From: Bacteroidia bacterium
GTDB taxonomy: Bacteria > Bacteroidota > Bacteroidia > B-17B0 > Aurantibacillaceae
Direction of reading: 5' to 3'
Length of the DNA stretch: 64,000 nt
NCBI GenBank assembly: GCA_016787785.1
Contig: JAEUTO010000003.1
Coordinates: 186,001-250,000 of the forward strand
The notes beneath the pieces are model-generated. The model had not been told where the DNA came from, made no database searches, and was given only the letters and a program-made list of their open reading frames with translations. A program made the translations under genes and the position numbers. Positions within the stretch are counted from its first letter, which is position 1. Every line of letters starts with the position of its first letter. Positions 15,723-24,779 of the stretch are shown here, piece by piece.

Positions 15723-18137
15723 TTATTTGTGTCCTAAACTTAATTTTAGTTTTTTCGGGGGGCCTGAATAATTAAGCTTTAATCCTTTAGAGTTTTCGGC
15801 AGTTTGGCCGCTGCTTGCGGGAATATAATTTTTACCACGTTTCTTTAGATTATTCCACGGAACTAAGATATTTATATTAGAATTCTCTTTAAAATGATAG
15901 GTGCCGCTAACAAATAAATTTAATACATTCGAAGCTATCTCCATTTCCTCTATCTGCATTTCAAAACCTTTTATTTGGCAGGTCTGGTTTATCTCGCTAA
16001 AAGAAATGTCTTTAAAATCCCGGTTCCTAAAAATGTAGTCTGATATGTTTTGCAAAGGTTGAAAGTTTAAAAGATGTCCCTCGGTTAATTTTACTTTTAT
16101 TTCACCGTCCATCGTATTACCAATAACTTCCATCTTTTCATCAAGCTCTGTTTTGATCTTTGCGTCAACAAAAATATTTCCCTGCAAATGCTCGCTCTCT
16201 ATTGCCTTTTGGCCAAAGTTCTCAAATTCAGAAAATAATGAATTCACATCCATATCTTCGATCTTAACCTCAGCAGTAATTTTATTGAGATCATAAATGG
16301 TGCCTTTAGCAAACAACTTACCATTGCAGGCGTTCATGTTTACCGATCTAACATCCAGCAATTTGTTCTTATACACCAGGTTAATGCTTGCATTTGTTGC
16401 TTTAACATTTCGAACGAACATTCTTTTAGCTAACAAAGAAACATTAAATTCAAAATTACTTTGCTCGGCTTTTATAGTCTTTTTATAAGCTGTTGTGGTT
16501 GCTGCGGTTGCTGCTGCTTCCGTCCTTCTGGCAGTGCTATCTTTTTTATTTGCTTTAACAGATAAGTATGGATTTAAATTAAAGCTCTCAGATCTGGCTG
16601 ATAATGTTGCTTTAAAGCCCTGTGTAAAACCCAACACATAGCTGGTAAAATTTTTAACATCGCCTTTTAAAGTCACATTGCCCGCATCCGTCTTTAAAAA
16701 TAAGTTTTCAAATTGCAGGTCTTTATTTTTAAGATTTGCGTTACCAACAATCGTATATACATAAGGCTTATTTATCTCCTGGTAACTTAAATTATTAAAA
16801 AATAAACCTGCATCCAATTTCATAGGAGCGTCTAAAAATTCGTTCTTATTTAATTTCTTGGTTGGTCCGCTGTATTTAATTTTTGCAACGCAATTGCCTT
16901 TTAAAATAAAATCCTTTCCGGGTTTAAAATCTATCTTTGTTGCTGTAATAAATAAATTGGCATCAATATTAATTTGAGGGTCATCAAAATTTACAACTGT
17001 AACTGACGCTGTAAATGGGAAATCGTAAAGGTTGCCTGTTATTGAATTAAAAATTACTCTGGCATGTTCGGTATCTCCCTTTTGTTTTGACGAGTCTAAG
17101 CTTACAATGGTTCCGTAAAAAGATAAGTTAGAATACGGTATTTTACTATTACCAATTGTTACATCGTTATTTTTACCGCTTAATTGTGCAATAATAATTG
17201 GATCTTGTTTTATACCAAGATTAGCTATGATTAATATTTTAGCATCAATATTTTTATTGACATTAAAATTTGCCAATTTTTTTTGCAGATTCGTGTTAAG
17301 AAGGCTCATGCCCTTTTTATAATCAATATTTTCACTTTGAATGGATAATACTAATTGCTTTTTTTCTTTAAGATCAATGAATGTGGTAACATAATAAGGG
17401 TGATTTCCCATGGTAACAATAGAGGGCTGATGAATAAAGATAGACTGGCTTTTAGTAAAAATACTGATGCTTAGGTTAAGATCTGCAGTCGTGTTCTTTA
17501 AGAATGGGCCTTTTTCAGGTTTAAACATTAAGCCACCGATATTAACCTCGCCCATGAACTTTGCTTCAATACCATCTTGTTCATTTTTTAACTTAATTAC
17601 ATTATCTACAAAATGCACATCAACATTTTGTCCCTTTTCTTTATCTAAAAAATTAAATTGTGTATTTAAAATGGTGATCTTCTTTATTTCAAATTCTATT
17701 GGGCTTGCAGAAGTTTTAGCAGCCGTTTGTTTTAATTCAAAATTATTAGACCCATCTTTATTCTTTATTAAATTTATTGTTGCATTTTTTATAGATACAG
17801 ATCCAACACTAAATTGTTTTTTAAAGAGTTTTAATATATCCAGCGAAAGAGCAACTGACCCGGCTTGTAAAATTGGTTCGTTTTTATTTGGAGATAGGTT
17901 ACTGAAAAGAGAGATATTCTTTAATTGAATAGATGCATCAGGCCAATTACTGAAAAATGACACGTTAAGGTCCTCTATTTTTAATATCATCCCCTGATTT
18001 TCCTTTAAATTTTCAATTAATGTTGTAGCAAGTTCTTTTTTATAAAAGGTAATTAAAATAAAAACAGATGTTGCTAATAATAGAGTTAGGGCGAGAAGCC
18101 CTATAAAAAAACGTTTAATATATTTTTTATACCGCAC
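15723..18137 (-). CDS. AsmA-like family protein
   Basis: 804 residues. One N-terminal membrane helix (residues about 8-30, FFIGLLALTLLLATSVFIL) is followed by a long strand-rich periplasmic region with the AsmA pattern: EDLNVSFFSNWPDASIQLKN early, and a C-terminal AsmA_2-type end (GQIKVKLTEGHLLNF-like, LFVSGTYHFKENSNI, LKLNYSGPPKKLKLSLG). AsmA-like proteins are thought to carry lipids between membranes. The start is GTG at 18137; no in-frame ATG lies before the membrane helix. An Ala/Thr-rich insert sits near residue 545. Its stop abuts that of pafA. Confidence 0.8.
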   Translation of the reverse strand: MRYKKYIKRFFIGLLALTLLLATSVFILITFYKKELATTLIENLKENQGMILKIEDLNVSFFSNWPDASIQLKNISLFSNLSPNKNEPILQAGSVALSLDILKLFKKQFSVGSVSIKNATINLIKNKDGSNNFELKQTAAKTSASPIEFEIKKITILNTQFNFLDKEKGQNVDVHFVDNVIKLKNEQDGIEAKFMGEVNIGGLMFKPEKGPFLKNTTADLNLSISIFTKSQSIFIHQPSIVTMGNHPYYVTTFIDLKEKKQLVLSIQSENIDYKKGMSLLNTNLQKKLANFNVNKNIDAKILIIANLGIKQDPIIIAQLSGKNNDVTIGNSKIPYSNLSFYGTIVSLDSSKQKGDTEHARVIFNSITGNLYDFPFTASVTVVNFDDPQINIDANLFITATKIDFKPGKDFILKGNCVAKIKYSGPTKKLNKNEFLDAPMKLDAGLFFNNLSYQEINKPYVYTIVGNANLKNKDLQFENLFLKTDAGNVTLKGDVKNFTSYVLGFTQGFKATLSARSESFNLNPYLSVKANKKDSTARRTEAAATAATTTAYKKTIKAEQSNFEFNVSLLAKRMFVRNVKATNASINLVYKNKLLDVRSVNMNACNGKLFAKGTIYDLNKITAEVKIEDMDVNSLFSEFENFGQKAIESEHLQGNIFVDAKIKTELDEKMEVIGNTMDGEIKVKLTEGHLLNFQPLQNISDYIFRNRDFKDISFSEINQTCQIKGFEMQIEEMEIASNVLNLFVSGTYHFKENSNINILVPWNNLKKRGKNYIPASSGQTAENSKGLKLNYSGPPKKLKLSLGHK

Positions 18138-18238
18138 TATAAATGATCAGGAAATAAAAAGGTAGGTAAATTTTTGCAATGCCATGTATTTGGTAACAAT
18201 TATCTGCAAATTTTGTGCCAGCGGTTTACTTTCAAAAG

Positions 18239-18517
18239 TTAGCTGCGCTGATCCGCTGAGGGGAGTCCCTCAAAATTTTATACCCTTTCAGGGTCTTTTT
18301 TGTTTTACAATCAATCTTTTGAAAATAAATTTCGTTATTAGGATTAGCTGCGCTGATCTCGGGGGAGGGACACAACCAGCAAATTTAAACTCTTTCAGAG
18401 TTAATTTTTGTTTTATGATCCGTCTTTTGAGAACAAGGTTTCATATTAGGGATTAGCTGCGCTGATCCACTTAAATACGAGTTTCTGCTCAACAAATTTC
18501 AAATCCTTTCAGGATTT
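18239..18517. repeat. Three tandem REP-like units: palindromic core plus covarying hairpin
   Basis: The core TTAGCTGCGCTGATC recurs at 18239-18253, 18344-18358 and 18453-18467 (spacing 105 and 109 bases). Each is followed by a small hairpin with constant loop TTTCA but different stems: ACCC/GGGT (18282-18294), ACTC/GAGT (18389-18401) and AAATCC/GGATTT (18501-18517). A T-rich run follows each hairpin. The stems change on both sides together, so base pairing is conserved rather than sequence. The rest of 18138-18572 shows no gene; a 90-codon frame from 18184 reads straight through the repeats and is not credible. Related units lie at 24363-24655. Confidence 0.75.
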
Positions 18518-18575
18518 TGTTTTTGTTTAAAAACTTGACTTATGAAAGTAAACTTCCAACGTCTCGTTTTTAAAC

Positions 18576-18602
18576 AAAAAAAACCCCGCTAAAGCGGGGT
18601 TT
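18576..18602 (-). terminator. Intrinsic terminator of tRNA-His
   Basis: Perfect 10-base-pair stem (18581-18590 with 18593-18602, sequence AAACCCCGCT and its complement) and a two-base apex, followed on the minus strand by an uninterrupted T run. It lies 11 bases past the 3' end of the tRNA. Confidence 0.85.
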
Positions 18603-18612
18603 AAGTTTGTTG

Positions 18613-18687
18613 GGTAAATGATGGGATTCGAACCCACGACCCTCGGTACCACAAACCGATGCTCTAACCAGCTGAGCTACATCTACC
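18613..18687 (-). tRNA. tRNA-His (GTG anticodon)
   Basis: Minus-strand cloverleaf. The acceptor stem pairs GTAGATG with CATTTAC; the D arm GCTC/GAGC, anticodon stem TCGGT/ACCGA with loop TTGTGGT (anticodon GTG), and TTCGAAT T-loop are all present. The base before G1 (18687) is G and the discriminator is C, the G-1:C73 pair typical of tRNA-His. No CCA is encoded. A -7 box lies upstream at 18699-18706. Confidence 0.93.
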
Positions 18688-18759: not shown

Positions 18760-21700
18760 TTAACGTATGAGCGTTACGTTTCCTTTTTTGAAGTTCTCTT
18801 CGCCATTAATGCATTTTACTTTCAAATACCAGCCAAAAACACCAACATCAGCCGGCCGGCTTTTATAGATACCATCCCAGCCTTTTGATTTATCGGTAGT
18901 TTCAAAAACCTTTTCGCCCCAGCGATTATAAACCGCAAAGAATACTTCATCCACTTTTAAGCCTCTTACAAATAAAATATCGTTTTTCCCGTCACCGTTA
19001 GGTGTAAATGTATTGGGCACAAAAAAATCATTATCAATACATCCCGCCGAATAAGCCTCTACACTGACCTGTACCTGCTCTTTACATGCTCCCAGAGTCG
19101 CTACCGCGGTATAAGTTGTAGGTCTGTCAGGATAGGCTGTTACTGTATAACCAAATGCAGGCGTGGTGCTTCCAGGTGGTAACCATGTTACAATTGCTCC
19201 AGGATCACCAACATAGGTTAAAGTGGTAGCGCTCCCGGTAGTAACAATTACCGGATTTGCATAGGCACTTATTGGTGTTGTTGAAAGCTGCGTTACGTTT
19301 ACACTTGTCGTTAATAAAAAAGCGCAGGCGGTTGGGCCTATCATAGCAGTTGTTGTAATTACCACAGAGTATTGTGTACTAATGGTTGGCGTTGCACTCG
19401 GATTAGCTATATTTGAGTAGTCAAGAGTAAGCGATGGGGTCCAAACATAAGAAGTTCCACCGGTAGCGGCGAGTTGAGCACTACCTCCTTTGCAAATTAT
19501 TTTTGCTGGATTTACTGTAACCGGCGGTGGCACCGGAACTGTGATCACCTGCTCTAAAGTATCCTTACAGCCATCGGTATTTGTTGCTATTAAAGAAATT
19601 GTATGTGTACCCCCATTTGTATAAAAATTATAAGGGTTTTGAACTGTGCTTGTTGCTGTTGCAGACAGAGACCATTGCCAAGAAGCAATATTGACCGTAG
19701 AAAGGTCACTAAAATACACGCCTCCACCACAAGGATTAGTACTAAAATTAAAATTTGCAGTAGGTTTTGGATTTACGACAACATTAGTAGTAAGTGTTTT
19801 TAGACAATTATTACCTCCTGTATTATTAAAAATTGTGACCGTATAAATGGTAGTTGTAGTTGGTGTAACAACAGGATTTGCAATACTTGTATTACTTACC
19901 TGCGAAGTTGGCGACCAAGTATAACTTGTACCACCACTAGCAGCAATAGTTGCAGATTCGCCAAAACAAATTACCGAACCACTTGCTACACCAGGTTGGA
20001 AATTAAACATGGAAACAGTATTTGTTTTTACATCAGTACAACCATTAATATCGGTAACGGTTAAACTAACCGTGTATGTGCCGCTGACCGAGTAGGTATG
20101 GGGCGGATTTGTAGCTGTGCTGACGGGACTGCCATCACCAAAATTCCAGGAATAAGGATTTGTTGTAAAACTGCCAGTAGAAGAATTTGTGGTCGCAATA
20201 GTGTTCGTGCAAGGTGTTGCGATCAAAGAAAAACTAGATACAGGTTTGGGGTATACAGTTATAAATGTAACAGAACTGTCTTTTATATTACAAGATGCCG
20301 GATCAATAACAACCAGCGACACAGTAAAATTACCCGGTGTTGTATAGGTAACAACAGGATTAATAGTTGTTGAAGTTGTTTGCCCATTACCTAAATACCA
20401 AATGTAGGATGTGTTTGTACCCGTTGGGGGTGTTGCGTTTGTAAAGGTTACTGTTAAGGGTAAACAGCCGCTTACCGTATTTGTATTAATGGTTGATACA
20501 GCTAATTGTAGTTGAAAATCTAATTTTATTACACCATTATTACAATTAAAATTATCGGTATTGTGATTTGGATTACCTGGCGTGTTTGGCCAGGCACCAG
20601 GCGTTACAGGAAAATCCTGATTAGCGCCTGTAACAGAATTACCGCCACAACCTGCACAAACAGATTGGTATATTTTTCCCTGTGGATCAAAACGGGAAGT
20701 TCCTCCATCAACATGTTCCTGGCTAATATTACCCCCAAAATAAGAGCCGTATTTTAAAGCCGCAGCGTTTGAATCCAATCCCATAAAATAAAAATCAAAT
20801 CCATCTGTTGTACTTTGTGTGGGCAACAATAAAGGCATATTACTTAACGATACGCTAGGTAATAAGAAGTTTGCACCCCACCCCGATATGTAAATGTTAT
20901 TGCAATTATCAACTGAAAAGGCTGCAGGTGATATGTCGAAATTGTTTGTGTAGTTTCCAAATACGGTAGACATATTCAACGTTGATAGATTAAAATTCAA
21001 TCTCGAAATAAACTGGTGTGTACCCGGAACATTAAATACGGTTGGTGATGTAGCGGCCTTTAATACCGGCATATTACCAAGTGATTGGCCGTAGATATAA
21101 ATGTTATTTTTTTTATCGGCCTGAATAAAAAAAGATTGATCGTACTGGGAAGTTCCAAAATACGTTCCGTTTAAAACAGCATTACCGGCAGGATTAACTC
21201 TGATAATATAACCATCGGCATTACCACCCTGGTAAGACGATTGATAGCCCCCCGTTGCATAAGGAAAATTGTTACTGCTTGTTCCGCCTGTAACATACAC
21301 TTCAAAATTATTTCTAACTATCAATCCATAACCTGCATCAGTTGCACTTCCACCAATAAATGAAGAGTAAATAAGGTTGGTAAGACCGGGATTAAATTTT
21401 GCAAGAATACCATCCTGAGTACCATTTAAACTATTATCAAATCCATTTACTGTTGGAAAATTTGACGAACGTGTAGAGCTCGCAATATAAATATTGTTGT
21501 TTGCATCCACTTGTATCTCACCCCGGCTTTGATCTCCATAATTAGTTTGTAAACTATCATAATCTGGTTGATAAATGGTAATGTTACCGGTTGTTGGTGG
21601 TGTTGCCGGTACAACAAAACCATTTGAGTATTGGTCTGTATGATTAAGCCCATCATTACCACTTCCGCCGAGGTAAGTAGAAGCCATTAAAGTACTACCC

Positions 21701-22917
21701 GCATTATTTAATTTCCCAATATAAATATCTGTACCATTATGAAAACGTAAGCCGTTGTAATAGAACATTAAAAAAGTACCACCATTAAATGAATTATCAA
21801 AAGCATTAGTTGTTGTAGGAAAGTTAGTACTGCTTGTTGAACCAAAAAAACAAAGGTTATTACTCTTGTCAACGATCATACTATTTATAGATTCGGTATA
21901 ATTACCGCCAAGATAGGTAGAGTATAAAAGATTAGTACCTGTAGAATTATACTTTGTTATTACAACATCTGTATTTCCATAATAAACCGGGCCGTTAAAT
22001 AAAGCGCTATATGCGCCTGGTGTTACCGGGTATCCAATGTTAAATATTGTCCCGCCTGAGTATAAGTTACCCTGAGGGTCAAATGTAGCAGTCATTCCAA
22101 AGTTGTCTGCAGTAGAGCCGCTCTGAGCGGCAAATACAAGAAGTGGATCAATAACAAGTTCGTAATTCTTATTATAGCCATTTGGGAAATCAAAACTCAA
22201 AACTTTGTTTTTTAACACGTAATTGCAAACAACCTGTTTTATTTTTCCGTTTATCAGCTGATAAGCATAAGGCCTTTGTTCTTTGATCTCATTTACTTCA
22301 AGCTTTAAATATACTGCCCCATTTTTTAAAACAATTTTATCAACGCCTTCGTACTTCAGGTTAATATCGCTTGTATTTCCGTTTGGCTTAACATGAAAAT
22401 TATATTTTAAACCATTAACTGATGTTATTACTTCATAATCAATTTTATTATATAAATTTCTTAACCATACTTGATGGTAGTTACGCACGTTACCTTTCCA
22501 TTTACTTTGATCATTTCCAATGAAAAAATTCTCATAATCGCTACCTTCCTGTAATTTTTCTGTGATCACATTTGTATTGCATCCAACAAAATGAATTTTA
22601 TAAGCGTGAGATCTTATATCAAAATTTTTATCCTTACCCTTTAAGATACCTCCATGATGAATGCTGCGGAATTTCTTTTTGTCATAAAAATTAAAAGTAA
22701 GGCAGTTTTGTTCTAAAAATAATGCGCCCCCATCCAACTGAGCCCTAAATAAAATTTTAGAGTCCCATTGTCCCTTATTTTCTGTAAATTTTAAGGTAGG
22801 GCTTACAAATGGAGAAATTATACTTTTTAGTGAATCACTTTGAGAAAAAACATCCACAAAGCTTCCAATAAAAAAAAGTAATATAAGGCCTTTTTTAAGC
22901 ATTAACCAAATATACAT
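18760..22917 (-). CDS. Giant secreted protein with SBBP-type propeller repeats, PKD domains and type-B T9SS C-terminal signal
   Basis: 1385 residues from ATG 22917; the ATG at 22902 gives a cleaner signal peptide (MLKKGLILLFFIGSFVDVFSQ). The N-terminal ~220 residues open with FTENKGQWDSKILFRA, typical of proteins carrying SBBP beta-propeller repeats. Residues about 240-800 contain repeated STYLGG-, NNIYI- and FP-T-like units. About 830-1270 hold three or more PKD-like domains (NFGDGSPVS-type turns) with alternating Thr/Ser-rich Ig-like segments. The last 90 residues (FVPNTFTPNGDGKND, VYNRWGEKVFE, GWDG, GWYLKV) are the gliding-motility-associated type-B T9SS sorting domain. It is exported across the outer membrane and probably surface-anchored or released; ligand unknown. 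Confidence 0.92.
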   Translation of the reverse strand: MYIWLMLKKGLILLFFIGSFVDVFSQSDSLKSIISPFVSPTLKFTENKGQWDSKILFRAQLDGGALFLEQNCLTFNFYDKKKFRSIHHGGILKGKDKNFDIRSHAYKIHFVGCNTNVITEKLQEGSDYENFFIGNDQSKWKGNVRNYHQVWLRNLYNKIDYEVITSVNGLKYNFHVKPNGNTSDINLKYEGVDKIVLKNGAVYLKLEVNEIKEQRPYAYQLINGKIKQVVCNYVLKNKVLSFDFPNGYNKNYELVIDPLLVFAAQSGSTADNFGMTATFDPQGNLYSGGTIFNIGYPVTPGAYSALFNGPVYYGNTDVVITKYNSTGTNLLYSTYLGGNYTESINSMIVDKSNNLCFFGSTSSTNFPTTTNAFDNSFNGGTFLMFYYNGLRFHNGTDIYIGKLNNAGSTLMASTYLGGSGNDGLNHTDQYSNGFVVPATPPTTGNITIYQPDYDSLQTNYGDQSRGEIQVDANNNIYIASSTRSSNFPTVNGFDNSLNGTQDGILAKFNPGLTNLIYSSFIGGSATDAGYGLIVRNNFEVYVTGGTSSNNFPYATGGYQSSYQGGNADGYIIRVNPAGNAVLNGTYFGTSQYDQSFFIQADKKNNIYIYGQSLGNMPVLKAATSPTVFNVPGTHQFISRLNFNLSTLNMSTVFGNYTNNFDISPAAFSVDNCNNIYISGWGANFLLPSVSLSNMPLLLPTQSTTDGFDFYFMGLDSNAAALKYGSYFGGNISQEHVDGGTSRFDPQGKIYQSVCAGCGGNSVTGANQDFPVTPGAWPNTPGNPNHNTDNFNCNNGVIKLDFQLQLAVSTINTNTVSGCLPLTVTFTNATPPTGTNTSYIWYLGNGQTTSTTINPVVTYTTPGNFTVSLVVIDPASCNIKDSSVTFITVYPKPVSSFSLIATPCTNTIATTNSSTGSFTTNPYSWNFGDGSPVSTATNPPHTYSVSGTYTVSLTVTDINGCTDVKTNTVSMFNFQPGVASGSVICFGESATIAASGGTSYTWSPTSQVSNTSIANPVVTPTTTTIYTVTIFNNTGGNNCLKTLTTNVVVNPKPTANFNFSTNPCGGGVYFSDLSTVNIASWQWSLSATATSTVQNPYNFYTNGGTHTISLIATNTDGCKDTLEQVITVPVPPPVTVNPAKIICKGGSAQLAATGGTSYVWTPSLTLDYSNIANPSATPTISTQYSVVITTTAMIGPTACAFLLTTSVNVTQLSTTPISAYANPVIVTTGSATTLTYVGDPGAIVTWLPPGSTTPAFGYTVTAYPDRPTTYTAVATLGACKEQVQVSVEAYSAGCIDNDFFVPNTFTPNGDGKNDILFVRGLKVDEVFFAVYNRWGEKVFETTDKSKGWDGIYKSRPADVGVFGWYLKVKCINGEENFKKGNVTLIR

Positions 22918-24283: not shown

Positions 24284-24362
24284 TTTTTTGCCTTTGATCT
24301 CAAGTTTATTTCCTGATTAAGAAAAATTAACAGAATTGTTTTTGTTACATAATCCTACATGG

Positions 24363-24447
24363 ATTAACTCGCTGCGCGCGTTAATATAAAAGAGTCGTTT
24401 CTATCTACAAGCTCTTATGGATTAGCTCGCTGCGCTCGTTGATCCAT
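24363..24447. repeat. Two degenerate palindromic copies of the tRNA-island repeat
   Basis: 24363-24385 is a nearly perfect palindrome (ATTAAC ... GTTAAT around CGCTGCGCG). 24417-24447 has ATGGAT and ATCCAT ends around TAGCTCGCTGCGCTCG. Both are variants of the GGATTAGCTGCGCTGATCC core seen at 18239-18467 and 24550-24568. No gene is visible between 24284 and 24708. Confidence 0.6.
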
Positions 24448-24448
24448 A

Positions 24449-24529
24449 GCAGAGGTTAATGCTCAACAAAACCCTTTTCGCTTTCGCGAAAAGTGGTTTA
24501 TTGTTTTATATCTCGTCGCGAAAGCAAGC
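24449..24529. repeat. 81-base direct repeat, copy A
   Basis: Identical to 24571-24651 except for one base near the 5' end (GCAGAGG versus GCGGAGG). It contains a perfect hairpin CTTTTCGC-TTTC-GCGAAAAG (24474-24493), the shared segment TGCTCAACAAA also found in the third unit at 18486-18496, and a T-rich stretch. Confidence 0.85.
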
Positions 24530-24570
24530 CTAGTAAACAACCTGCCATGGATTAGCTGCGCTGATCCGCA

Positions 24571-24651
24571 GCGGAGGTTAATGCTCAACAAAACCCTTTT
24601 CGCTTTCGCGAAAAGTGGTTTATTGTTTTATATCTCGTCGCGAAAGCAAGC
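24571..24651. repeat. 81-base direct repeat, copy B
   Basis: Second copy, 122 bases downstream of copy A, immediately preceded by a full palindromic core (TTAGCTGCGCTGATC at 24552-24566). It holds the same 8-base-pair TTTC-loop hairpin at 24596-24615. A 67-codon frame from 24581 runs through this repeat and into the tRNA antisense and is not a gene. Confidence 0.85.
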
Positions 24652-24680
24652 TTTCTCTCCTCGATATAAAACAATAAACC
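24617..24680. repeat. 18-base perfect inverted repeat enclosing a smaller hairpin
   Basis: Arms 24617-24634 and 24663-24680 (GGTTTATTGTTTTATATC and its exact complement) are separated by 28 bases, which themselves contain GAAAGC-AA-GCTTTC (24642-24655). The right arm overlaps the left side of the tRNA-Gln terminator, so alternative pairings are possible. Confidence 0.8.
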
Positions 24681-24703
24681 CCCAAAGTAAACTTTGGGGG
24701 TTT
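24668..24703 (-). terminator. Intrinsic terminator of tRNA-Gln (possibly bidirectional)
   Basis: A 12-base-pair stem (24676-24687 with 24692-24703, core CCCCCAAAG) with a four-base loop. On the minus strand it is followed by TTATTGTTTT; on the plus strand by TTTTGTTGTT. It lies 5 bases past the tRNA 3' end. Confidence 0.8.
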
Positions 24704-24708
24704 TGTTG

Positions 24709-24779
24709 TTGCCCGAGCTGGATTCGAACCAACATAGTCGGTACCAAAAACCGAAGTCCTGCCATTAGACGATCGGGCA
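24709..24779 (-). tRNA. tRNA-Gln (TTG anticodon)
   Basis: Minus-strand cloverleaf of 71 bases. Acceptor stem TGCCCGA/TCGGGCA, anticodon stem TCGGT/ACCGA with loop TTTTGGT giving anticodon TTG, TTCGAAT T-loop, discriminator A, no encoded CCA. A full promoter lies upstream. Confidence 0.93.

Follow-up and report, generated by a model that had tools for sequence, protein, structure and literature searches.

What produced the three tandem hairpin-bearing units that stand behind a tRNA-His gene of a Bacteroidia bacterium, and what keeps their stems matched? We examined this question in a 64,000-nucleotide stretch of DNA (the window) from a 4.6 Mb genome of 16 contigs (G000), together with related copies in other genomes. 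A preliminary description of the locus had noted three hairpins with ACCC, ACTC or AAATCC stems beside TTTCA at a similar position in each unit, with changes on one side of a stem matched on the other, and both observations were borne out in all three hairpins. Our analysis indicates that a palindromic mini-element without genes, roughly 100-200 bp long, has probably inserted repeatedly at the 3' end of tRNA-His, and that the array records these events.

The array lies behind tRNA-His and points at the gene, between the start of a reverse-strand open reading frame (ORF; 15723-18137) and the reverse-strand tRNA itself. The units are marked by the 15-mer TTAGCTGCGCTGATC, which starts at 18239, 18344 and 18453 (start-to-start spacing of 105 and 109 bp) and is followed in each case by a TTTCA hairpin at a similar distance; at up to two mismatches the 15-mer has four copies in the window compared to 0.08 expected. 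Each unit consists of palindrome A (GGATTAGC-TGC-GCTGATCC or a variant), a variable stretch, the TTTCA hairpin, a T-rich tail and an imperfect palindrome B (for example TTATGAAAGTAAACTTCCAA). The feature had been given an extent of 18239-18517, where the hairpins do lie, but it is larger and continues through the tRNA-His terminator and gene to 18686. A terminator scanner lists the unit 1 hairpin and the tRNA-His terminator, and the unlisted hairpins of units 2 and 3, with stems poorer in G+C, are putative terminators. The loop described as constant is so within this array, but the orthologous array of G018 has TTTCG, TATCA and TTCCA by eye, and the tRNA-Gln array of the window has other hairpins. 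Just past tRNA-His, the reverse strand holds a 1385-residue ORF with repeated domains (18760-22917), the C-terminal stretch of which presumably resembles a gliding/type IX secretion tail.

Features of the tRNA-His and tRNA-Gln arrays in the window.
Feature	Position	Strand	Remark
tRNA-His array: palindrome A, unit 1 (outermost)	18238-18254	+	left arm decayed
Inverted terminator hairpin, unit 1 (ACCC-TTTCA-GGGT)	18282-18294	+	T-rich tail to about 18307; listed by terminator scanner
Palindrome B, unit 1 (TTTTGAAAATAAATTTCG)	18317-18334	.	imperfect; by eye
Palindrome A, unit 2	18341-18359	+	
Inverted terminator-like hairpin, unit 2 (ACTC-TTTCA-GAGT), with T-rich tail	18389-18401	+	absent from scanner list
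Palindrome B, unit 2	18424-18444	.	decayed; without tRNA-side partner here; compared with orthologous units
Palindrome A, unit 3 (tRNA-proximal; GGATTAGC TGC GCTGATCC)	18450-18468	+	
Inverted terminator-like hairpin, unit 3 (AAATCC-TTTCA-GGATTT)	18501-18517	+	absent from scanner list
Tail of unit 3 (TTTTTGTTTAAAAAC)	18520-18534	+	stem II with 18566-18580
Palindrome B, unit 3	18540-18559	.	stem II apex
tRNA-side partner of unit 3 tail	18566-18580	-	stem II
tRNA-His terminator hairpin	18581-18602	-	fourth arm of junction
tRNA-His (GTG)	18612-18686	-	target gene
tRNA-Gln array: palindrome A, outermost	24361-24387	+	decayed; by eye
Palindrome A with longer tip	24419-24445	+	by eye
Inverted terminator hairpin	24474-24493	+	
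Palindrome A, tRNA-proximal	24549-24567	+	
Inverted terminator hairpin	24596-24615	+	four-way-junction arm
Palindrome B (GCGAAAGCAAGCTTTC)	24640-24655	.	
tRNA-Gln terminator	24678-24702	-	four-way-junction arm
tRNA-Gln (TTG)	24708-24779	-	target gene

The same feature recurs elsewhere in this genome. The fourth window copy of the 15-mer starts at 24552, behind tRNA-Gln, with two variant units upstream of it in an array that spans about 24.4-24.7 kb. There are five exact 15-mers in the genome, all behind tRNA-His, tRNA-Gln or tmRNA, the tmRNA copy being the one outside the window; the general dispersal through intergenic DNA that is a REP trait was not found in this genome. Palindrome A is carried by only 3 of its 52 tRNA/tmRNA flanks, and these three head the 52 in inverted similarity by a narrow margin (37 each, the next two 34 and 34).

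We then asked how widely the feature is distributed. Palindrome RGATTAGCTGCGCTGATCY occurs in at least 117 genome stretches (one genome per species) compared to about 7 expected by our own arithmetic, a lower bound that is biased to the exact pattern, and 114 of the at least 117 stretches listed have titles naming Bacteroidota or a group of it. The other titles among the matches listed are a Saccharibacteria bin (L141) and an alphaproteobacterium (L164), neither of which has a tRNA at its locus, while L153 is titled 'uncultured bacterium'. Several stretches (L106, L119, L126, L134, L139, L171, L178 and L184) appear identical to records of our G-series genomes, and the two sets overlap. Within that series, the 15-mer is exact in 11 of 60 genomes, our own included, and the reversed pattern in none; the match in G010 (L055), which is among these 11, lies in coding DNA and looks due to chance. 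A 19-mer with one free base, searched at up to two mismatches and thus biased to that threshold, yielded 81 sites in 21 of 39 genus genomes, and its reversed control one. Across a phylum-wide sample searched at up to one mismatch, 3 of 296 genomes, own included, carried the pattern, and we count this sparseness against the insertion reading. As the same feature recurs behind tRNA genes in many genomes, a chance origin is very unlikely.

Linkage to tRNA genes is oriented. Of the 161 copies listed, 118 have a downstream tRNA called by ARAGORN at no more than 1 kb, convergent each time, and none has a same-strand tRNA within that distance; 3 copies sit on the other side of a convergent tRNA, and those without a near tRNA comprise 18 with none found where the sequence ends within 400 bp, 17 with none in the locus and 5 with a far one. 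Counted per stretch, a whole convergent tRNA lies within 1 kb downstream in 87 of the at least 117 listed, at a median distance of 140 bp (ARAGORN), and some tRNA-less stretches end by eye at tmRNA-like or decayed tRNA-like 3' ends (e.g. L116 and L152). In the genus and two other genomes, a convergent tRNA lies within 700 bp at 58 of 85 sites and farther away at 4. The 23 sites without a called tRNA are counted against insertion; inspection by eye showed several to be chance matches in coding DNA and several to be tRNA-like ends that ARAGORN misses.

Some individual loci deserve mention. At a contig end of a Bacteroidales MAG (L083, 4294-4955), the exact pattern occurs five times with a spacing of 111-112 bp and no tRNA is called; the same genome has an array behind tRNA-Ser (L166). 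Arrays at tRNA-Ser-like 3' ends (tgcggag..., tttgcggtcaggg...) with no tRNA called are found in L228 (G030), L244 (G061) and L329 (G025), and the two units of L228, 182 bp apart, each retain a tRNA-Ser-like end. Around position 700 of L324 and L325 (G030), in reverse orientation, an A junction comes, by eye, after a clean tRNA-Met 3' end, and no whole tRNA is called beyond the element; the target tRNA-Met gene seems to have been lost or replaced there.

What lies on the far side of palindrome A is informative. At the clearest loci, the DNA left of A is a copy of the 3' end of the locus's own tRNA that begins at the T-loop (...GGATT) and reaches the 3' terminus; beyond this copy stands another trailer, often with a terminator (L105, L118, L153, L163, L165, L079, L056 and the tmRNA locus). 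With each tRNA flank counted once, the left flank matches the 3' end of its own tRNA in 25 of 194 copies (106 tRNA loci, among the matches listed) compared to 0 of 776 other-isotype pairings; the 169 copies below the threshold, among the matches listed, count against insertion. A nearest-copy version of this comparison used 70 of 72 copies, two being too near the locus end. In the non-tandem loci examined, clean repeats consist of 17-25 bp of a tRNA end (25 bp for both L105 and L153), and no short target duplication was seen there. The edge of the repeat falls near position 58 of the tRNA, and an origin by reverse transcription was considered.

The outer trailer is mostly unlike the present one, with similarity near baseline in 13 of 16 clean-repeat copies. 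The exceptions are L158, where old and new trailers are alike (score 40 compared to a baseline of 17), which counts against insertion, and two tandem units of L165. The latter locus, from Bacteroidetes MAG K_Offshore_80m_m1_206, has three units 159 bp apart behind tRNA-Leu, each with a tRNA 3' end, and the inner trailers of its two tandem units are identical over the 90 bases compared. Most clean cases therefore suggest the joint arrival of a new trailer, its terminator and a tRNA end, which is what insertion would predict and copying in place would not.

Between A and the tRNA lie two trailer halves in opposite orientation, with different terminator hairpins. We compared these halves and their folding in 62 intervals of 110-170 bp among the matches listed. 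The mean inverted-half score was 34.1 for a locus's own halves compared to 15.6 for the same isotype elsewhere and 15.2 for another isotype, and the own partner was the best of the 62 in 40 loci (n=62, among the matches listed). We take the inverted match from this 62-interval comparison because the clean-repeat comparison had overlapping segments in short intervals, above all L079, L105 and L114. Where examples were aligned, similarity is higher in the sequences flanking the two terminator hairpins than within the hairpins, and one strand can therefore form stem I, the (+) hairpin, stem II with B, and the (-) hairpin, giving a four-way junction with few loose bases. DNA folding yielded z of -9.1 for the Gln element on either strand and -6.2 for the His element. 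Across the 62 intervals (among the matches listed) the median z was -7.2, and a strict four-way test was passed by 22 of 62 compared to 14 of 1240 shuffles. A small control of 11 motif-less tRNA flanks gave a median z of -2.4, with 1 passing the four-way test and 3 at z of -4 or below; both the restriction of the four-way fold to 22 of 62 intervals and the partial passing of this control count against insertion.

Palindrome A itself changes in a paired manner. Among the 81 genus sites, selected at up to two mismatches to the pattern, pair 7/13 is G-C in 60, A-T with both sides changed in 14, G.T in 2 and non-pairing in 5, and the outermost pair is G-C in 62, A-T in 10, G.T in 1 and non-pairing in 8. 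The T.G pair 5/15 is invariant in 81 of 81. Beyond the searched motif, the first outer position of the arms pairs in 94 of 140 copies compared to a shuffle maximum of 62, and the second in 67 compared to 56 (among the matches listed); these are the 140 distinct copies of the 161 listed after removal of L088 and L164 (chance coding matches), locus-end copies and duplicates. Enrichment is limited to these two positions, which counts against insertion. The idea that A needs a stable GNA-loop DNA mini-hairpin at its tip was dropped, because the tip varies in length and sequence. The T-N-C tip is nearly fixed in the pattern-selected genus sites. The tRNA-Gln loci of G010 and G017 (L277 and L265) have by eye long variable tips between GGATTAGC and GCTGATCC, indicating that mainly the base of A is conserved.

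Together these results uphold part of the preliminary description: there are more copies behind tRNA-Gln, tmRNA and in other genomes, and compensatory changes recur, with stems of palindrome A not mutating independently (genome-wide covariation of the TTTCA hairpins was judged by eye). Its proposal of a structure under selection stands insofar as the paired changes point to a nucleic-acid structure that is either selected or kept matched by a mechanism, but the structure does not look like a free-standing RNA. The description had missed the tRNA link, the direct repeat of the tRNA 3' end and the identity of the TTTCA hairpins as part of inverted trailer/terminator copies.

We could follow the probable growth of one array across species. 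By eye, tRNA-His is followed by one unit in G006, two in G020 and three in G000 and G018, and in all these genomes the tail of the last unit finds its partner on the strand adjoining the tRNA: TACAAC with GTTGTAAAAC in G006, TATGA with TCATAAAAC in G020 and G018, and TTTAAAAAC with GTTTTTAAAC in G000. Unit 1 of G000 pairs with unit 2 of G018 and unit 1 of G020 (global scores 62 and 52), and its unit 2 with unit 3 of G018 and unit 2 of G020 (48 and 41). For unit 3 of G000 the highest score is with the only unit of G011 (30, the runner-up reaching 26), and unit 3 would therefore have been added or replaced after the split. The single unit of G006 scores at most 12 against all, and its tail is by eye nearly that of unit 2 of G018.

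This polarity extends to the wider set. With each tRNA flank counted once, the tRNA-proximal unit is the best fit to the tRNA-side partner in 22 of 40 arrays, ties in 11 and loses in 7, compared to a chance level of 10.3 of the 29 untied arrays; 22 was reached in 0 of 10,000 draws. This scoring supersedes a first one with segments of unequal length (last unit best in 21, tied in 3 and not best in 16 of 40). The 7 of 29 untied arrays that contradict the polarity are counted against insertion, and because they include the automatic scores of the G018 and G020 tRNA-His arrays, the trend rests on the whole set.

Based on these observations, we propose how such an element might be built. Read towards the tRNA, its first half would comprise the second half of A, often a purine-rich stretch, an inverted trailer copy with its terminator hairpin and T-rich tail, and B; its second half would bring a new trailer and terminator followed by a copy of the tRNA 3' end from T-loop to 3' terminus. 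The TTTCA hairpins would thus be the second, inverted terminators of the elements, and the joined element ends would constitute palindrome A (...GGATT joined to AGCTNCGCTGATCC...). If half of A and the tRNA end are added to the median distance of 140 bp, the full element would by our arithmetic measure about 175 bp. Insertion at the T-loop would rebuild a whole tRNA with a new terminator and push the old 3' end and trailer outwards. Later insertions would add beside the tRNA, the stranded tRNA-side half of older units would be lost and the displaced 3' end would decay, and loss of the tRNA-side halves would leave units of about 105-115 bp. When single-stranded, the element would fold into the four-way junction plus hairpin A, presumably the recombining form.

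Mobility would call for a circular or single-stranded intermediate and for a recombinase acting in trans, either host XerC/XerD or one from a passing element, as the elements are too short for a gene and would have no integrase of their own. We rejected a dedicated integrase, since the number of PF00589 matches does not follow presence of the pattern (2-8 per genome in ten genomes with sites compared to 3-9 in ten without); this too counts against insertion. In G008, a draft of about 150 contigs with eight sites, we found only two tyrosine recombinases, matching XerD above and XerC below the curated cut-off. No autonomous gene-bearing form was seen: the ORFs between A and the nearest detected tRNA in L114 and L157, 3.9 and 3.3 kb away, look chromosomal by eye. 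In L114, A is near the contig end and the tRNA flank contains a run of N, and in L157, A stands beside a tRNA-like end uncalled by ARAGORN. Carriage by phages or plasmids was likewise rejected: the viral_contigs set held no stretch with the exact pattern, the plasmids gave no blastn match to the His unit and the phages none to the Gln element, and the lack of a vehicle in these sets counts against insertion.

Without any mobility, template switching, fold-back copying and slippage during replication of palindromes could build the arrays locally, and such errors would also keep hairpins and inverted copies matched without selection. Quasi-palindrome correction is an established mutational process, and this reading draws on the trailer halves being locus-private inverted copies, on identical tandem units (L053 and L165) and on the likeness of old and new trailers in L158. 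We nevertheless consider it unlikely as the main explanation, because it leaves unexplained why the same A sequence recurs across many genera, convergent wherever a near tRNA is called, and accounts neither for the tRNA-end direct repeats nor for the displaced trailer, which in 13 of 16 clean cases does not resemble its replacement. In the window elements, the two terminator hairpins also differ in sequence, which is unexpected for a fresh fold-back copy. Copying errors of this kind at palindromes may well add to the upkeep of matched stems. A module that the host selects as a bidirectional terminator or insulator behind strongly transcribed tRNA genes, with duplication incidental, also leaves the tRNA-end direct repeats unexplained. 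Both halves are indeed terminator-like, with a hairpin and then a T-rich tail, unit 1 and the tRNA-His terminator are listed by the scanner, and orthologous units persist across species, but A is on few of the tRNA/tmRNA flanks of this genome. Moreover, of the 69 nearest left ORFs in 87 stretches among the matches listed (one copy per stretch, 18 without a left ORF), 31 face the array and 38 face away from it. This orientation is unbiased, ending convergent genes is therefore not a general role, and a convergent-gene terminator was rejected; we judge the module as a whole to be quite improbable.

The link to RAYT-associated REP families drawn in the preliminary description is not supported by the search for a transposase. 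At E ≤ 0.001, PF01797 matched nothing in this genome, nor in G030 with its nine pattern sites; in its favour, a match is present in 28 of 39 genus genomes. As in a REP/BIME-like family mobilised by RAYT (Y1 transposase), the copies are short palindromes between genes that alternate in orientation and possibly act single-stranded, but they are tied to tRNA genes, and long direct repeats of target sequence are to our knowledge not a REP trait, leaving this origin very improbable. We give scarcely any credence to a structured RNA, or a tandem array of small RNAs, read from the + strand, in spite of a unit order of hairpin A, linker and terminator and of the invariant T.G pair of A, which pairs on that strand. 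At the gathering score, Rfam matched only the two tRNAs in the window, with 45 further weak matches up to E 5 all under family cut-offs, and a known RNA family was rejected on this basis. Promoter-like sites are at chance level (2 compared to 1.5, in a scan that does not cover Bacteroidota promoters), and a single transcript containing the inverted pairing would have to run through both terminators, which is hardly to be expected.

We therefore return to insertion of a mini-element as the reading that we favour. A gene-free palindrome integrating at tRNA genes in many Bacteroidota would show how little integration needs and would explain hairpin patches and tRNA fragments behind tRNA genes. 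It would also leave a layer-by-layer record at single loci, such as the one, two and three units at tRNA-His. Far more tentatively, and with considerable doubt, we suggest that these elements might form a new class of mobile DNA: gene-free, roughly 100-200 bp long, moving as folded single strands (hairpin A plus a B-capped four-way junction), recombined into the tRNA T-arm by XerC/XerD-type host recombinases and evading counter-selection by supplying a perfect 3' end and a fresh terminator. If so, few known integrative elements would be as small, and tRNA genes in many Bacteroidota would be their hosts as parasites. The portions of the literature that our searches returned on such elements, tRNA integration and folded Xer sites contained no description of them.

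By analogy, the elements would resemble tRNA-targeted islands in function and BIME or MITE elements in form. Short intergenic palindromes, clustered and in alternating orientation, are shared with REP/BIME sequences and RAYT, but here they are tied to tRNA 3' ends, have another sequence and a larger unit, and lack a RAYT in two A-bearing genomes. MITEs and other non-autonomous elements are similarly small, gene-free, repeated and presumably moved in trans; ours would seem to differ in having a defined gene position, no short target duplication seen and no autonomous relative found in the distances and the L114 and L157 ORFs examined. Integron attC and other folded att sites of XerC/XerD offer an analogy only, as imperfect palindromes that may recombine as folded single strands: XerC/XerD use folded single strands as att sites, and attC core boxes read RYYYAAC and GTTRRRY. 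Palindrome A reads GATTAGC..GCTGATC or GATTAAC..GTTGATC, in which the attC boxes fail by eye at one or more positions, and here there is no cassette gene and the target is a tRNA.

The parallel in function is with integrative elements targeted to tRNA and tmRNA genes. tRNA genes are classic docking sites of genomic islands, and integrases prefer their T-loop; the elements that we know of at tRNA genes carry integrases and cargo. Phages, integrative and conjugative elements (ICEs) and similar integrated mobile elements are described as leaving tRNA gene fragments (PMC9897764). The likeness lies in partial tRNA 3' ends beside a whole gene, and the difference in that the whole insert here is roughly 100-200 bp and palindromic. 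With islands, ICEs and tyrosine-integrase prophages at large, the elements share the repeat of the tRNA 3' end with its edge in the T-loop, the rebuilt tRNA and tandem accretion on the tRNA side; what sets them apart is a length of roughly 100-200 bp without genes or an integrase, a palindromic build with two opposed terminators, and ends that join in a hairpin.
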